Positions 17,086 to 30,038 of a DNA stretch of 64,000 nt are shown here, piece by piece. Source of the DNA: Burkholderia sp. 9120 (GTDB lineage: Bacteria; Pseudomonadota; Gammaproteobacteria; Burkholderiales; Burkholderiaceae); contig NZ_JQNA01000002.1 of the NCBI RefSeq assembly GCF_000745015.1, forward strand, positions 4,836,001 through 4,900,000, read 5' to 3'. Positions within the stretch are counted from its first letter, which is position 1. Every line of letters begins with the position of its first letter. The notes below the pieces were generated by a model. It ran no database searches. It saw only the letters and a program-made list of their open reading frames with translations, and had not been told where the DNA came from. A program made the position numbers and the translations under genes.

Positions 17086-17418
17086 ATGGCCAATTACAAA
17101 ACCACCACTCTCGTCGTCGGTGCGTTCGCTGCCGCTCTCGCCGCCTTGACGGCCACCTCCGCCAGCGCACAGGAATTCACCGCGGCGCAGAAGAAGATTC
17201 AGGCCGAGCATACGGCGCTCGTGAAGTCGGGCAAGGTCGAGCCCTGCTTCGGCACCGCAATGAAGGGGCAAAACGACTGCTACGCAGGGGCGGGCACCAC
17301 CTGCGCCGGCACCAGCACGACGGACTATCAGGGCAACGCATTCAAGCTGGTGCCCAAAGGAACCTGCACCGGCATCTCCACACCGAGCGGCCCCGGCAGC
17401 CTGTCGCCGAAGGCCTAA
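17086..17418 (+). CDS. bufA: DUF2282 secreted precursor, bufferin-type copper-binding RiPP
   Basis: This 110-residue protein has a Sec signal peptide cleaved after SASA (about residue 28) and a short mature region with four Cys: 54 (EPCFG), 65 (NDCYAGAG), 73 (TTCAGTS) and 94 (KGTCTG). The spacing is that of DUF2282. Established knowledge: in bufferins such as those of Caulobacter, DUF692 enzymes oxidise the Cys of this precursor to copper-chelating thiooxazoles and the product protects against copper. GGAGA is 7 bases before ATG 17086. The gene is first in an operon with DUF692, an unknown gene, DUF2063 and DoxX. A hairpin after its stop may raise its dose over the enzymes. Confidence 0.9.
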
Positions 17419-17429
17419 CATCGATCGGC

Positions 17430-17453
17430 GGCCGGGCTTCGTCGAGCCCGGCC
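17430..17453 (+). promoter_or_regulatory. hairpin between precursor and enzyme genes
   Basis: GGCCGGGCT (17430-17438) pairs perfectly with AGCCCGGCC (17445-17453) around a 6-base loop, 11 bases after the bufA stop and 30 bases before bufB. No U-tract follows, so it more likely gives partial attenuation or 3'-end protection of the precursor mRNA than full termination. Confidence 0.6.
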
Positions 17454-17483
17454 TCGCAGTGCTCACCGCAACAATGGTTCGCC

Positions 17484-18425
17484 ATGTCAGAGTCATTCCC
17501 GCACGACGCCCGACAGAGCCTGCCTCAACGCGCCGGGGTTGGGCTTAAGGCGCAGCACTACCACACGATCCTCGAATCGCGGCCGGACATCGGCTTTTTC
17601 GAGGTTCATGCGGAAAACTATATGGGCGCCGGTGGTCCGCCGCACCGCTTTCTGTCCGCCATACGCGAGCGCTACCCGCTATCGATTCATGGTGTCGGTC
17701 TGTCGATCGGCGCGGACCGGCCGCTCGACCGGGATCATCTCCAGCGCCTCAAATCGCTCATGGCCCGCTATACGCCAGGCCTGTTTTCCGAACACCTGGC
17801 CTGGTCCAGCCACGACTGCGGCTTTCTCAACGACCTGCTGCCGGTTCCCTACACCGCCCAGAGCCTCGCGCGCGTAGCGGACCACATCGACCAGGTGCAG
17901 GAGGTGCTCGGCCGGCCGATGCTGCTGGAAAACCCGTCGACGTACCTCGCTTTCGAGGAAAGCACGTATTCGGAGACCGACTTCATTGCCGCCGTCGCAC
18001 AGCGCACCGGCTGCGGTCTTCTGCTCGACATCAACAACGTGTACGTCGCGTCGATCAACCAGCAGTGGGACCCGTTGGCCTATATCGACAACTATCCGCT
18101 CGCGGCGGTGCAACAGATTCATCTGGCCGGTCACACACGCGAGGCAGACGAAAAGAACCGTCCGCTGCTGATCGATACACACGATCGTCGCATTGCGGAC
18201 ATCGTGTGGGAACTCTTCGCACGGGCGATCCGCCGGACCGGTCCCCTTCCCACCTTGATCGAATGGGACGCGAACTTACCCGACTGGCCGACGCTCAAGG
18301 CGGAAGCCGAGCGCGCCGACAGCGTCGTTCAGACCGTCATGCTACCGGTCGGTATCGACCACGTAAGCAGCCGGCCGCCATTCATCGCCACGCGTCACCC
18401 GCACACAGAGGTGCAGACAACATGA
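17484..18425 (+). CDS. bufB: DUF692 multinuclear non-haem iron oxidase (bufferin-modifying)
   Basis: This 313-residue TIM-barrel protein of family DUF692 (MNIO) would modify Cys residues of the bufA product in the cytoplasm before export. The metal-ligand motifs are all present in order: FFEVHAENY, SIHGVGLSIG, FSEHLAW, LLENPSTY, LLLDINNVYV, QIHLAGH, DTHD and LIEWDAN. ATG 17484 is the only reasonable start; its ribosome-binding site is weak, consistent with lower expression than the precursor. Its stop overlaps the next start (ATGA at 18422-18425). The C-terminal roughly 25 residues are not conserved. Confidence 0.92.
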   Translation: MSESFPHDARQSLPQRAGVGLKAQHYHTILESRPDIGFFEVHAENYMGAGGPPHRFLSAIRERYPLSIHGVGLSIGADRPLDRDHLQRLKSLMARYTPGLFSEHLAWSSHDCGFLNDLLPVPYTAQSLARVADHIDQVQEVLGRPMLLENPSTYLAFEESTYSETDFIAAVAQRTGCGLLLDINNVYVASINQQWDPLAYIDNYPLAAVQQIHLAGHTREADEKNRPLLIDTHDRRIADIVWELFARAIRRTGPLPTLIEWDANLPDWPTLKAEAERADSVVQTVMLPVGIDHVSSRPPFIATRHPHTEVQTT

Positions 18426-19399
18426 TCAAGCGACAAGTCCTGGTGTATTACGCGTGGAGCCGGCCAGGCGAGAACGGTGCACCGCTCCATGTGATCGACG
18501 ACCGGTTTCCGGCCCTCTTCGAAAGTCGCAGGATGGGTTTCCCGCGATTCCACGAATTCTCCGACCCGCACGAGTTCGATCAGAGCATTACCGGTTTCCT
18601 CGACCACATCATGAAGCGCAACTTCACCGCCTTTGTCGAACTGGCGGCGGCGTTGACGGGCCAGAGTGTGACGGAGATCGAACGCGTCGCGGACGACGGC
18701 ACCCTCACGCCGCTCGACGCGCATCTTCTGAACGGCGTCGACACGCTGATCGTCATCAGTTTCGACTCGCTGCGCACCGCTCAAACGGCGGGCAGCGATG
18801 AGATCGACGCGCTGCGCACCTTCCTTGGACACGCCGACCATCTCGCCTTCATCTGCCCACACCACGATATCGGCGATGTCACGGGGCTGCCGGAAAACGA
18901 GTTACTGGATCGTCAGATCGCCGAATTTCATCATCACGGCGACACGACGATTCCACCGCGGCAACGGTTCGGCGGGTTCGCGCGTTCGTTGCTCGCGGCT
19001 CTTGGCGTACCGGTGGAAAACCGCTTCGGACTCAGGCCGTTGGCTGAAGCGGATGGAACGCCAACGCCGATCGAAGCGGATACGGCACTCGATCGATTGG
19101 GCCTGCTTCAACGAGTTGGCACGTTCAATCTGCACGCGCATTTACCGCAGCTCGAACGACTCGGCGAGGCCGTCGAAAAACTCGATGTACTGGTTCGTCA
19201 GCGAATCGATCTCCACGCGCCGCCGCATCCGTTCACCGCTGACCGCTCGACCTTCGATGCGCTCCTGCAGTCTCGACCGGATACGTTCGCCGGCAGCCTG
19301 CTCGTGAGCGATACGACGCTCTGGAGTTCAACGGCTGGCGGTGTCGACAGTCTTCGCGAGTTGTGGACGAATGTCGTTCAACGCCCGCTACGAACCTGA
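18422..19399 (+). CDS. unrecognised 325-aa protein embedded in the bufferin operon
   Basis: I do not recognise this protein. It starts at ATG 18422 overlapping the DUF692 stop, and ends 7 bases before the DUF2063 start, so it is an integral part of the operon. No signal peptide or membrane segment is visible. Residues 105-150 read like a Rossmann-type strand-helix-strand (DTLIVISFDSLRTA, HADHLAFICPHHDIGD), followed by a His cluster (EFHHHGDTTIP) and later HAHLPQLERLG. The single Cys lies in ICPHHD, reminiscent of a nucleophile elbow in ThuA/DJ-1-like folds, but this is only a shape resemblance. The His-rich motifs suggest metal binding. Confidence 0.82.
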   Translation: MIKRQVLVYYAWSRPGENGAPLHVIDDRFPALFESRRMGFPRFHEFSDPHEFDQSITGFLDHIMKRNFTAFVELAAALTGQSVTEIERVADDGTLTPLDAHLLNGVDTLIVISFDSLRTAQTAGSDEIDALRTFLGHADHLAFICPHHDIGDVTGLPENELLDRQIAEFHHHGDTTIPPRQRFGGFARSLLAALGVPVENRFGLRPLAEADGTPTPIEADTALDRLGLLQRVGTFNLHAHLPQLERLGEAVEKLDVLVRQRIDLHAPPHPFTADRSTFDALLQSRPDTFAGSLLVSDTTLWSSTAGGVDSLRELWTNVVQRPLRT

Positions 19400-19406
19400 G
19401 CGCGTA

Positions 19407-20288
19407 ATGGCACACCAAAACTTGCTCCAGGCATCCGCTGAAGCGTCGAGCGGCAGAGCCGACGTCCGCGCGGGTCTGCTGCCCGATTGCTTATGCGACC
19501 GGCAGAGGCACTTCGCTGCGGCGCTACTGGATCCGGGTAGCCCCGTTCCTCCCGGCCTGGTCGGCCCCGATCACGAACCCAGCGAAAAGCGCTTTAACGT
19601 CTATCGGAACAACGTCGTGGTTGGCCTCGTCGAGACGTTACGGGCGGCTTATCCTGCCGTGTGCCGCCTTGTCGGCGACGACTTCTTCGCGGCGATGGCG
19701 CGCGTCTACGTCGCACTCGAACCGCCGAGGTCGCCCATCATGCTCAACTATGGCGAAACGTTCGCGGCGTTCATCGAACGATTCGAGCCGGCGAATAGCG
19801 TGCCGTATCTGGCCGACGTCGCCCGACTCGAACGGGCGTGGGTCGAGGCATATCACGCCGCGGAGGCGCTGCCGATCGACCCCGCGCGACTCGCCACGAT
19901 CGACTCGCAAAGCCTGCCTCAGGTCGTCTTTGCGCTGCATCCTTCGTTACGCGTCGTACGGTCGTCGTTTCCCGCCGTGCGGATATGGCAGATGAACATC
20001 GACGGCGGTGAGCCCACCGCTATCGACCTATCCAGCGGCAGCGAAAATGCCCTCGTCGTACGCCCGCTTGCCGAAGTGGAGGTACGCCAGGTGCCGGCAA
20101 GCGCAGCGACTTTTATCCAGAGCGTTGCGGCGCACGCGTCGGTCGCCGAAGCGACGACCCTCGCTTTCGACGAAGACGCCGATTTCGATCTGGCCGGCAC
20201 CCTTCGAGACCTGTTCGCGATCAACGCGATCGTCGGATGGCGTCTTCAGGAAGCCGCCGAATTCAGCCCCACCGAGAGGGTCGCATGA
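19407..20288 (+). CDS. bufC: DUF2063 domain protein, partner of the DUF692 oxidase
   Basis: This 293-residue protein has the DUF2063 DNA-binding-like N-terminal domain. Diagnostic segments are KRFNVYRNNVVVGLVETLRAAYPAV and FFAAMARVYVALEPPRSPIMLNYG (about 60-120), followed by YLADVARLERAWVEAYHAAE. The C-terminal half is more variable. Proteins of this family accompany DUF692 enzymes and recognise the precursor's leader. ATG 19407 is 7 bases after the preceding stop; an in-frame ATG at 19371 would overlap it by 29 bases and is less likely. It overlaps the DoxX gene by 4 bases. Confidence 0.9.
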   Translation: MAHQNLLQASAEASSGRADVRAGLLPDCLCDRQRHFAAALLDPGSPVPPGLVGPDHEPSEKRFNVYRNNVVVGLVETLRAAYPAVCRLVGDDFFAAMARVYVALEPPRSPIMLNYGETFAAFIERFEPANSVPYLADVARLERAWVEAYHAAEALPIDPARLATIDSQSLPQVVFALHPSLRVVRSSFPAVRIWQMNIDGGEPTAIDLSSGSENALVVRPLAEVEVRQVPASAATFIQSVAAHASVAEATTLAFDEDADFDLAGTLRDLFAINAIVGWRLQEAAEFSPTERVA

Positions 20289-20785
20289 ATCAGATTAGCG
20301 CACGGACCAAGGGCCGCTTCGAACTGCTGATTCGCACGGCGTTGGAGCACATTCAGGCGCTCGGCTGCATGCTTGCACCGCCCATGCTGCGAATCGCCCT
20401 CGCGCTACCGTTCTTTCGATCCGGTCTGACGCGATGGGACGGCCCGCTGTCCATTTCGCCCGCTACGCTTTACCTGTTCGAGAATCAATTCAAGGTTCAC
20501 GCGTTCGGCGGCGCCTATGGTTTCCCGGCACCCGACACGGTCGCGCTTCTGGTGGCCGTGGCGGAAATAACCTTCCCTATTCTGCTGGTGCTCGGATTCG
20601 CGACCCGGTTCGCGGCCTTGGCGTTATTGGTCATGACCGGCGTGATCCAATTGGTCTTCCCCGATGGCTGGGCGAATTTCCATCTCTATTGGGCGTCGCT
20701 CGCCGTGGCGATCATGGCGCTCGGTGCGGGACCTGTGTCGCTGGATCGTCTGATAAGCCGCTGGTTCTATTCACGCGATATCTGA
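20285..20785 (+). CDS. DoxX-family membrane protein of the bufferin operon
   Basis: This 166-residue integral membrane protein has four hydrophobic helices. MLRIALALPFFRSGLTRWDG at the start of the DoxX domain is followed by LLVAVAEITFPILLVLGFATRFAAL and VIQLVFPDGWANFHLYWA. It starts at ATGA overlapping the DUF2063 stop, so translation is coupled. DoxX proteins regularly close bufferin-type operons (called bufD in Caulobacter). Their role may be redox supply to the iron oxidase or membrane integration of the pathway; neither is shown by the sequence. Confidence 0.9.
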   Translation: MNQISARTKGRFELLIRTALEHIQALGCMLAPPMLRIALALPFFRSGLTRWDGPLSISPATLYLFENQFKVHAFGGAYGFPAPDTVALLVAVAEITFPILLVLGFATRFAALALLVMTGVIQLVFPDGWANFHLYWASLAVAIMALGAGPVSLDRLISRWFYSRDI

Positions 20786-21324: not shown

Positions 21325-22263
21325 TTATTCGCGCGCGCCTTTCATCGCACGCCGTCTGCCGTTTTCCCGCGCGAACGCGGCCGGCGTGCAGCCCACGTGA
21401 CGGTGAAAACGCCGGGTAAAGTGGCTCTGATCCGCAAAGCCCGTCATGAGTGCGATTTCCGAAAGCGGAATGGCGGTTTCCAGAATGAGCGATTGCGCGC
21501 GACGAATCCGGCATTGTTCGACAAAGCCGATCGCCGTCATTCCCGTGCTCTGCTTGAACAGGCGCGTAAAGTGGAAACGGCTTACGTTCACTATGCCGGC
21601 AAGTTCAATGAGCCCGATCGGTCGATCGAGATTCTCTTCCACGTACGCGGTGATCCGCGCCACTTCGACCCGGCTCAACGCCGGCAAAACCTGCGGTACA
21701 ACGGCTTCAAAGACGTTGTAACTACGAAGCAGGTGCGCCGCGAGCGCAAACGACATCTGATCGACAATGAGCGTCTGCGCGGGATGCGCCTTCCGGTCCA
21801 GTTCGCCGATCAGCACCTGCGCGATGTGTTCGATGATGGGATCTTTCGTCTCGAACACATTCCGAATCTCGATCTGCGACGTGCTACGGCGGCCAATCTG
21901 CTCGGCGGCCGATTCGATCAGCGCGGTCGGAATACGCAATCTTGCGGTTGCGGAGGCACTCCCTTCCCACAACGAGTCGTATCCGGCCGGCATGAGCATT
22001 GAAACGCCTGCCGTAACCAGACTTTCGTGGACGGTCCCGTCGCGGCCCTGCACGAGGCGCGCGCTGCCGGTCGGGCAATAGCAGATCAGATGATGATCGA
22101 GCGCGGGATAGCGCTCGGATACGTCGGGGAGCGGAGCGTACATGTCGACCGTGACGCCTGGCCACTCCCGCTCGCGCGTGGTCGCCGTGGGACGATGCGA
22201 CAAGACATGCACGATCTCGTCGATGGTGACAGGTTTATCCGCGGTTTGAGAAATCGTTGACAT
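21325..22263 (-). CDS. AraC-family regulator, paralogue 1
   Basis: This 312-residue protein has an N-terminal cupin-like sensor domain (DHHLICYCPTGSARLVQGRDG) and a C-terminal AraC double helix-turn-helix: ELAGIVNVSRFHFTRLFKQ, then PLSEIALMTGFADQSHFTRRF and GCTPAAFARENGRRR. It shares most of its length and many exact segments (EQCRIRRAQSLI, LIVD, FHRHVGCTPA) with 29013-30038, so the two are recent paralogues. It is divergent from the dihydrolipoamide dehydrogenase-like gene 22575-23969, its most likely target. The inducer is unknown. Confidence 0.93.
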   Translation of the reverse strand: MSTISQTADKPVTIDEIVHVLSHRPTATTREREWPGVTVDMYAPLPDVSERYPALDHHLICYCPTGSARLVQGRDGTVHESLVTAGVSMLMPAGYDSLWEGSASATARLRIPTALIESAAEQIGRRSTSQIEIRNVFETKDPIIEHIAQVLIGELDRKAHPAQTLIVDQMSFALAAHLLRSYNVFEAVVPQVLPALSRVEVARITAYVEENLDRPIGLIELAGIVNVSRFHFTRLFKQSTGMTAIGFVEQCRIRRAQSLILETAIPLSEIALMTGFADQSHFTRRFHRHVGCTPAAFARENGRRRAMKGARE

Positions 22264-22574
22264 GTCACAGTGCCGGATCTGCTTGCTTCGAGCCGAAATG
22301 CTAACACGACAATAGTCCCGCTCGGGACGCCGTGAATCACTTTGGAAAACGAAAAATCAGCACACGATCCAGCGTTCCATCATGAACGCCGCGATTGTGT
22401 TCTTCAGGCATCAAGTATCAACCAAACTGAGCACGAGTGTTCAATTCAACGCTCGCGCGTTCTGCTACGCTGAAGTCACCTTTCTATGTCGCGACCCATT
22501 TCGACTGGCCGCGAGGGCGACCGCCCAATCCCGTTCTTTCCTCCCCGTTCGTGTGAGCTCAGGGCGCTAGCTTG
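22264..22574. other. divergent regulatory region AraC / Lpd-like gene
   Basis: This 311-base region lies between two divergent starts and should hold both promoters and AraC-binding sites. It is AT-richer than the flanks around 22330-22460. I could not define a convincing direct repeat or -10/-35 pair by eye, and it does not carry the 71-bp element found upstream of the second AraC gene. Confidence 0.4.
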
Positions 22575-23969
22575 ATGAAACATTACGATGTCATCGTCAT
22601 TGGGTGCGGCGCGGGCGGTTACAACACCGCGATTCGCGCGGCCCAGCTCGGCCTCTCTGTCGCCTGTGTCGAACGAGCGTCGAATGTCGGCGGAGCGGGC
22701 ATGCGCAGCGGCTGCATTCCGTCGCGATTGCTGCTTCATACTTCCGAAATCTACGAGCTGGCCAGCAAGAATGCCGCGCTGGGCATCGACTGCGCGCCCA
22801 CGCTCAATCTCGCGCAAATGATGGCGTATAAAGCCGCCACCGTTGAGAAGATGTCGAACGGCGTTCACAAACTGCTGCACAAGCACGGCGTCACGCTCAT
22901 CTATGGTCACGCGCTGCTTGCCGCCGCGGGACAGGTGGTCGTCAGAAAAGCGGGCGGCGTGCAGCAATCCTTGCGCGGAACCGCCGTTGTGATCGCCACG
23001 GGTTCGGAACCCATCCCGCTCCCCTTTGCCCCTTTCGATCACACGCGGATTCTCGATTCGGCCGATGCGCTGTCACTCGATCGGGTACCGCGACATCTGG
23101 CGATCATCGGCGCGGGTGCAATAGGCGTGGAACTCGGTTCGATCTGGCGCCGCCTCGGCGCGCGCGTCACGCTGATCGAGCGTCGCGATCGTCTCTGCCA
23201 TTGGCTCGATCGCGACGTGACCGCCACGCTGGAACGCTCGCTGCGGCGACAAGGTATGGCGATCCGCTTGTCGAGCGACGTGATCGATATCGACAAGCGC
23301 ACGGACAGTGTTTCCATTCGACTGCGCACGGCGGAATCGGGCGAGATCACCACGCTCGACGCCGATATCGCGCTCGTCGCGATCGGCCGCCGACCGTCAA
23401 CGGCCGGCCTTAATCTTGCAAGCGTGCGCGCGCCCTCCGCGCAGGAGGACGTATTGCCTCAGCAAGGTCTGCTGACGCGGGCCGCGGGAATCTGGGTAAT
23501 CGGCGACGCCGCCGCCGGCGCGATGCTCATGTCCAAAGCCGAAGAAGAAGCGATAGCGTGCGCTGAGCGGATTGCCGGTCTGCCCGGCTTCGTCAATTAC
23601 GCGGCGATCCCCTACGCGCTTTACACGCGCCCCGAGGTCGCGATGATCGGCAAAACCGAGGACGAGCTTCGCGGAAGCGGCATGGCATATCGCGTCGGTT
23701 ACTGCCCGATCGCCGGCAACGCGCGTGCCGCAATCGGCAGCACCACCGACGGGTTTGTGAAACTGCTGGTCGACGCGCAGACGAACCTGATTGCGGGCGC
23801 TCATCTGGTCGGCCCTGGCGCGGCCGATCTGGTTTCGCAGGTGGCCGTCGCCATGGAAGCCTCAATGCTGTGCGAGGATTTTGCGCGTATCTGTCATCCC
23901 CATCCCGTCTGGTCCGAGGCACTGCGTCAGGCCGCCATGGCCGCGGGCGGATGGATGATGCACGCCTAG
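22575..23969 (+). CDS. dihydrolipoamide dehydrogenase-like flavoprotein lacking one redox cysteine
   Basis: This 464-residue protein is a full-length class I disulfide-reductase fold. FAD binds at VIVIGCGAGGYNTAIRAAQLG, NAD binds at LAIIGAGAIGVELGSIW, IWVIGDAA is the second FAD motif, and the interface domain has ICHPHPVWSEAL with the conserved His-Pro and Glu. In the usual GGTCLNVGCIPSK, this protein reads GGAGMRSGCIPSR: the first Cys is Gly42, only Cys47 remains, and the Lys is Arg51. It therefore cannot form the active disulfide and probably has another reaction or a regulatory role. ATG 22575 is preferred to the adjoining TTG. It is divergent from an AraC gene and convergent with an antiporter gene. 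Confidence 0.9.
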   Translation: MKHYDVIVIGCGAGGYNTAIRAAQLGLSVACVERASNVGGAGMRSGCIPSRLLLHTSEIYELASKNAALGIDCAPTLNLAQMMAYKAATVEKMSNGVHKLLHKHGVTLIYGHALLAAAGQVVVRKAGGVQQSLRGTAVVIATGSEPIPLPFAPFDHTRILDSADALSLDRVPRHLAIIGAGAIGVELGSIWRRLGARVTLIERRDRLCHWLDRDVTATLERSLRRQGMAIRLSSDVIDIDKRTDSVSIRLRTAESGEITTLDADIALVAIGRRPSTAGLNLASVRAPSAQEDVLPQQGLLTRAAGIWVIGDAAAGAMLMSKAEEEAIACAERIAGLPGFVNYAAIPYALYTRPEVAMIGKTEDELRGSGMAYRVGYCPIAGNARAAIGSTTDGFVKLLVDAQTNLIAGAHLVGPGAADLVSQVAVAMEASMLCEDFARICHPHPVWSEALRQAAMAAGGWMMHA

Positions 23970-29012: not shown

Positions 29013-30038
29013 TTATGGCTCGCGCTTGCCGATGGACTGCGCCGAGCGCAGCCCCGAGCGTCGTCGTCCCTGCTCGCGCGCAAACACCGCGGGCGTGCAG
29101 CCGACATGCCGATGAAATCGCCGCGTGAAATGGCTCTGATCGACAAAGCCCACCGTCAACGCGATCTCCGCGAGCGGTCGGTCGGTGTCGGTAATCAGCG
29201 ATTGCGCCCGGCGGATCCGACACTGTTCGACGAAACTGATCGCCGTGCTGCCGGTGCTGCGTTTGAACAGGCGGCTGAAATGGAACCGGCTCATATTCAC
29301 GACCGAGGCCAGATCTTCGAGGCTGATCGTGCGATCGAGATTGTCTTCGATGAATTCCGTGAGGCGCGCGATTTCGAGCTTGCAGAGCGAGCGCTCCGGC
29401 GAGACCTCCACCCATTCGAATGCGTTATAGCCGCGCAGCATATGGGCGGCCAGCGCGGTGGATAGCGCGTCGACGATCAACACCTGAACGGGATGCGCCG
29501 GCCGGTCCATTTCCACCAGCAGCGTCTGCGCGAGGCGCTCGATCACGGGATCGCGCACCTGAAACACATTGCGGATTTCCACCTGGCCCGGCCGCTGACC
29601 CACCTGCTCCGCCGCCGAGTCGACCAGCGAGGTCGGCACGCGCAGCCGCGCGGACAATCCCGAATCGCCTTCCCACGCCGACTCGTAGCCGGCGGGCATG
29701 ATATAGGACGTGCCAGCCGTAATGACGCTTGCATGAACGACGCCGGCGCGGCTCTGAACCAGTTTCGCGCTGCCCGACGGGCAATAGCAGATCAGATGAT
29801 GATCGAGGCCCGCGTGGCGCTCGGCGCAACCGAAGTACGGACGGTGAAGGTCGGCCGTCACGCCACTCCAGCCGCGCTCGCGGGTGGTGGCAATCGGCCG
29901 CTGGGGGCGCGCGCTCAGGATCTCGTCGATGGAGATCAATTTCGTATGGGCCAGCGCGGGCAGCCGGTTCTGAGCCACGGTGTTATCCACGAGCAACGCT
30001 CCGTTGACGCCGATAGCCGGACGCCGAAGGTGGTGCAT
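29013..30038 (-). CDS. AraC-family regulator, paralogue 2
   Basis: This 341-residue protein has the same architecture as 21325-22263: a cupin-like sensor (DHHLICYCPSGSAKLVQSRAG) and a C-terminal double helix-turn-helix (DLASVVNMSRFHFSRLFKR, PLAEIALTVGFVDQSHFTRRF, GCTPAVFAREQGRRR). It has about 25 more N-terminal residues, so an internal start is possible. It is convergent with lutC, so it may or may not control the lactate operon. The 71-bp element (30200-30270) lies 161 bases upstream of its start. Confidence 0.92.
   Translation of the reverse strand: MHHLRRPAIGVNGALLVDNTVAQNRLPALAHTKLISIDEILSARPQRPIATTRERGWSGVTADLHRPYFGCAERHAGLDHHLICYCPSGSAKLVQSRAGVVHASVITAGTSYIMPAGYESAWEGDSGLSARLRVPTSLVDSAAEQVGQRPGQVEIRNVFQVRDPVIERLAQTLLVEMDRPAHPVQVLIVDALSTALAAHMLRGYNAFEWVEVSPERSLCKLEIARLTEFIEDNLDRTISLEDLASVVNMSRFHFSRLFKRSTGSTAISFVEQCRIRRAQSLITDTDRPLAEIALTVGFVDQSHFTRRFHRHVGCTPAVFAREQGRRRSGLRSAQSIGKREP

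Follow-up and report, generated by a model that had tools for sequence, protein, structure and literature searches.

The bufferin operon of Burkholderia sp. 9120 carries an extra gene, here called X, between bufB and bufC (Table 1). The operon occupies positions 17086-20785 of the window, meaning the whole stretch of 64,000 nucleotides that was analysed, which belongs to the 6.58-Mb contig of a two-contig, 8.46-Mb genome. X is a real and conserved gene that was recruited once into operons of the Buf1 type. The five-gene order bufA-bufB-X-bufC-doxX, given in an original prediction made by reading the sequence, was confirmed by Pfam, NCBIfam and the sequence itself, as were the ATGA overlap of X with bufB and the 7 bases between the X stop and the bufC start. 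By gene content the operon is Buf1, with a DUF2282 precursor of four cysteines, BufB, and the downstream DUF2063 and DoxX genes all present. BufB scores 393.2 bits against the NCBIfam model MNIO_BufB (NF050167, cut-off 310), and the Pfam matches of DUF2063 and DoxX both lie above cut-off; BufC also matches NF050145 HvfC, and the DoxX protein NF050144 HvfX, each below the cut-off of that model. The cysteines of BufA stand at positions 54, 65, 73 and 94, behind a hydrophobic N-terminus that, judged by inspection only, resembles a Sec signal peptide, and bufC and doxX share a second ATGA overlap at 20285-20288.

Table 1. Features of the X-containing bufferin operon and its flank, in window coordinates
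Feature	Position	Strand	Evidence or remark
bufA, Buf1-type (DUF2282) precursor, 110 aa, 4 Cys	17086-17418	+	PF10048, E 1.3e-21
Cys65-Tyr66 of BufA (Cys2 followed by an aromatic residue)	17278-17283	+	confined to X operons in sample
bufB, MNIO enzyme, 313 aa	17484-18425	+	PF05114 (MNIO), E 8.2e-109
ATGA overlap, bufB stop / X start, 4 bases	18422-18425	+	sequence
X, extra gene, 325 aa	18422-19399	+	amidotransferase-like/ThuA-like predicted fold; fits the published adjamnio-VI proteins by position
X motif ICPHHDIG, residues 144-151	18851-18874	+	H147, H148, D149 in 37/37; C145 in 29/37
X motif HHGD, residues 171-174	18932-18943	+	invariant, 37/37
X motif NLHAHLP, residues 236-242	19127-19147	+	N236, H238, H240 in 37/37
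bufC, DUF2063 partner protein, 293 aa	19407-20288	+	PF09836, E 6.5e-26
doxX (bufD), DoxX family, 166 aa	20285-20785	+	PF07681, E 3.7e-15
AraC-family regulator	21325-22263	-	20 of the 23 loci with an X relative have a homologue within the fetched stretch (at most 6 kb on either side of X)

The layout recurs well beyond the window. An X relative was found at 23 loci of the genome collection, and because 20 of them show the order bufA-bufB-X-bufC, the arrangement in the window is not a matter of chance; doxX follows in 19 of those 20 operons, the stretch of the remaining one (L013) stopping within bufC. The nearest X among the named loci is that of Paraburkholderia sp. BL21I4N1, 94% identical, and the same order occurs in four intact Rhizobium plasmid operons. 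When spacing was measured in 25 operons, with approximate bufC starts, the ATGA overlap of bufB and X was present in 12, and the remainder had gaps of 7-52 bases. Co-occurrence of X homologues with DUF692 (MNIO) was checked in 299 genomes sampled across the family, where X was found in 10 and a BufB match in 104 (95 above the cut-off, 9 below); X adjoins bufB in eight of the ten, and the co-occurrence has a Fisher value of 0.004, which ignores the relatedness of the genomes. A bufferin operon with X on a plasmid of Rhizobium leguminosarum RCAM0610 (L085) appears to have broken frames, through decay or sequencing error.

Within the bufferins, X is confined to one lineage. Among the BufB matches, the analysis covered 90 loci (L040-L069 and L087-L146, weaker matches being left out); X was present at 8 and absent at 82. 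Scores against the window BufB range from 469 to 718 at loci with X (718 being the window itself) and reach at most 368.5 at the 82 loci without it; since all the former lie above the latter, no X-less bufB of this lineage was seen among the 90. Furthermore, a BufB tree of 46 rows has a single branch, with support of 100/96, that sets all 21 X rows apart on one side. The window genome itself has two further BufB loci, L132 and L143, both lacking X. The original reading of a bufferin operon is right, the operon being of the Buf1 type, and the 20 of 23 loci and the BufB tree show that X has a stable place in one lineage of these operons.

No match to X was found in Pfam or NCBIfam at E values up to 1, the Pfam ThuA/GATase signature being likewise absent at that limit, nor a significant one among PDB sequences (best E 1.6). 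Structure prediction of 18422-19399 gave an amidotransferase-like or ThuA-like fold (predicted local distance difference test, pLDDT, 82; predicted template modelling score, pTM, 0.85), and two predicted models had the same fold neighbours (Foldseek, VIA). No sequence-profile link was found between X and known members of the ThuA-like and class I glutamine amidotransferase-like fold (1t0b, 3fij, 3rht), and the histidine motifs of X are its own. Both motifs singled out originally, ICPHHDIGD and EFHHHGD, are indeed present. In an alignment of 37 X proteins from three phyla, in which the broken L085 copy was left out, seven histidines are invariant, together with R28, E34, R36, R37, D115, D149, D174 and D297; these seven histidines suggest that the cluster probably binds metal. 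C145 appears to occupy the likely nucleophile place, the elbow after strand 4 as placed by strand order only; the residue there is Cys in 29 of the 37 proteins and Gly or Ala in the other 8, the Cys being lost in the DyP-linked relatives described below and in one buf relative.

X also lives outside bufferin operons. Among the 37 aligned proteins, 25 are encoded beside MNIO, 7 beside a DyP-type peroxidase, 1 after a pyridoxal phosphate (PLP) decarboxylase, and 4 alone. Three of the 23 loci (L014, L019 and L023) hold X without buf genes within the fetched stretch, and a fourth such case, L070 in genome G255, corresponds in place to the plasmid match H1, from Caballeronia sp. SBC1. Searches for MNIO and DUF2282 found neither in the genomes of L014 (G070), L070 (G255) and L019 (G002), with completeness rated at 100% for G070 and G255 and no rating for G002; the genome of L023 (G003) holds a separate bufferin locus, and that locus is without X. 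The lone X of L070 is intact and constrained, with a ratio of nonsynonymous to synonymous substitution (dN/dS) of 0.11 against L002, compared with 0.08-0.21 for six operon pairs.

More distant relatives were found in other company. Among 398 genomes searched across the phylum, G667 was the one match apart from the window genome; its relative G870 also carries X, and both are Pseudomonadota. A tblastn search of plasmids added relatives from Rhizobium, Streptomyces and Nostoc; 18 records matched and 11 were opened, with H2, H4, H13, H14, H16 and H18 left out, and the search finds plasmid copies only and so gives no measure of how frequent the DyP module is on chromosomes. Seven relatives, from the two Pseudomonadota genomes, Streptomyces and Nostoc, lie in a module of a 177-199 aa protein or its homologue, X, and a DyP-type peroxidase (for example L071:6856-9838, L076:6356-9302 and L077:4997-7960), and the peroxidase of Streptomyces NBC_01579 clears the NCBIfam DyP cut-off. 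In the modules on Streptomyces and Nostoc plasmids, X is 37-39% identical to that of the window; unlike the window operon, these modules include the 177-199 aa protein, and the stretches examined there yielded no match to BufB. On R. leguminosarum pSK02, the X relative starts 3 bases after a PLP decarboxylase gene, whose product clears the Pfam decarboxylase cut-offs while its NCBIfam tyrosine decarboxylase matches stay below theirs.

In the X tree, L014 and L070 nest within the buf clade, and L023, L019 and the PLP-linked and DyP-linked proteins branch outside it, with long branches of L080, L019 and L023 that make exact placement unsure. Because relatives branch outside and two lone copies are nested inside, X appears to be older than its bufferin association and has, at least twice, either survived its operon or left it. 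The original view that X belongs to the pathway thus stands for one operon lineage, in which the gene is stable, but not for the family, whose members persist in genomes where the searches for MNIO and DUF2282 found neither, or beside DyP or a PLP decarboxylase.

The operon variant is already in print. A 2025 account of MNIO systems describes adjamnio-VI proteins, encoded between the MNIO and DUF2063 genes of buf1 operons, with an added modification suggested and, in the sections covered, no function given (PMC12452194). These operons likewise have a gene between MNIO and DUF2063 (PME-type 1) in an otherwise classical buf1 operon, and X fits adjamnio-VI, an identity resting on position; the gene was accordingly not unrecognised, and described bufferin operons with this layout existed. 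In its covered sections that account has neither the fold nor the contexts outside bufferins, nor does it have the loss of the operon surrounding X, and it presents Buf1 systems as having a small core gene set in which secondary modification is rare (PMC12452194). The term adjamnio was found in no other paper of the literature searched, and the searches made returned no paper linking ThuA with MNIO or with gene clusters of DyP-type peroxidases. The predicted fold, the wider family and the independent life of X are new. Caulobacter bufferin-1, fontiphorin and other captophorins resemble the window system in having an MNIO, a DUF2063 partner and a cysteine-bearing precursor, which there give copper-binding 5-thiooxazoles; in the parts of these accounts covered, their core is described without X (PMC12452194, PMC13097082).

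Other genes surround the operon. A second, AraC-family-like gene at 29013-30038 resembles, by eye, the AraC-family gene listed in Table 1. Divergent from bufA, the segment 13780-16788 holds a cyanase, an HD protein with a weak, below-cut-off likeness to cyanamide hydratase, and a gene that by eye is catalase-like, a group found beside the operon only in L001 among the 23 loci. A lipoamide dehydrogenase-like gene at 22572-23969 lies above the TIGR01350 cut-off and has a homologue in the fetched stretch of 8 of the 23 loci.

As for what X does, it may handle metal or carry out an additional maturation step, as first proposed from its motifs. The favoured reading, given about an even chance, is that X is an autonomous soluble, probably metal-dependent enzyme that was recruited once into one Buf1 lineage for an auxiliary step. 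The family would have an amidotransferase-like (ThuA-like) fold with a conserved, His- and Asp-rich and probably metal-binding active site; a single recruitment would have placed it between bufB and bufC, so that X would be made together with the thiooxazole-forming pair. Its target would be either the aromatic residue or backbone adjoining the first thiooxazole, or a small molecule tied to the same metal or oxidative stress. X would act outside the core conversion of cysteine to thiooxazole, for most Buf1 operons in this analysis lack it. Most likely, X catalyses a metal-dependent step alongside thiooxazole formation and not as part of it, with tailoring of the peptide as the main rival.

That rival holds that X is a second maturation enzyme, which installs or trims something on the BufA of its lineage near Cys65-Tyr66; it is possible but clearly doubtful. 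The fixed place of X between bufB and bufC and the ATGA overlap in 12 of the 25 operons measured speak for it, as does the precursor. X-operon BufA share a common sequence before Cys2 that is unlike other BufA, and every one that was read has Tyr or Phe directly after Cys2. In the sample of 90 loci, Tyr follows Cys2 in all eight X cases, whereas the 70 readable BufA without X have Ala in 50, Lys in 10, Ser in 8, and Gln and Gly in one each; BufA was unreadable by motif at 13 loci, 12 without X and one with it (L045, later read by alignment). The residue after Cys governs MNIO processing in the FonB work on fontiphorin, where small residues are strongly preferred, and yet FonBC modified one Cys-Tyr variant, once, in the portions of that study covered (PMC13097082). 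Several changes in BufA are specific to this clade, the aromatic residue among them, and since the X-operon BufA descend together, that residue may reflect descent, not function. The Phe of two Rhizobium operons speaks against chemistry at a Tyr hydroxyl, and X persists where the search for BufA found none.

In another, unlikely explanation, X would help an iron-dependent oxidising enzyme to mature or to acquire its metal, this enzyme being MNIO here and the heme enzyme DyP elsewhere. The 25 and 7 of 37 relatives beside these enzymes and the invariant His-rich site agree with such a role, but a PLP decarboxylase precedes the X relative in one case, four further relatives lack any such neighbour, and 82 of the 90 BufB loci do without X. 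Most improbable is a non-catalytic binding or scaffold protein, the role of the GIFT-type domains of IFT52 and OST48 (the oligosaccharyltransferase chains being presumably OST48), against which the invariant His, Arg, Glu and Asp residues named above resemble an active site.

Several points weigh against an auxiliary metal-dependent enzyme. Both the enzymatic role and the bound metal of X are predictions; residues 21-43, with R28, E34, R36 and R37 among them, are poorly modelled; hhalign of X against six amidotransferases gave a probability of 0.1, so that the likeness is one of fold only; and some domains with the amidotransferase-like fold are not known to be catalytic. The missing MNIO of G002 comes from a genome of unrated completeness, and the tight tie of X to one clade of BufA, BufB and BufC could equally mean a peptide-specific step.

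A bolder proposal, a long shot, is that the X family comprises His-rich metal-dependent enzymes of amidotransferase-like fold, adopted by several oxidative pathways, namely thiooxazole peptides, DyP modules and a PLP decarboxylase pair. In bufferins X would modify the peptide a second time, at the aromatic residue next to the first thiooxazole, and so give rise to a new class of copper peptide; elsewhere the same chemistry would meet another substrate. In conclusion, a lineage that keeps an extra gene, together with the survival of X without the operon, offers a direct handle on the question of whether any bufferin is modified further, and the DyP and decarboxylase contexts provide other systems in which the reaction of X may be found.
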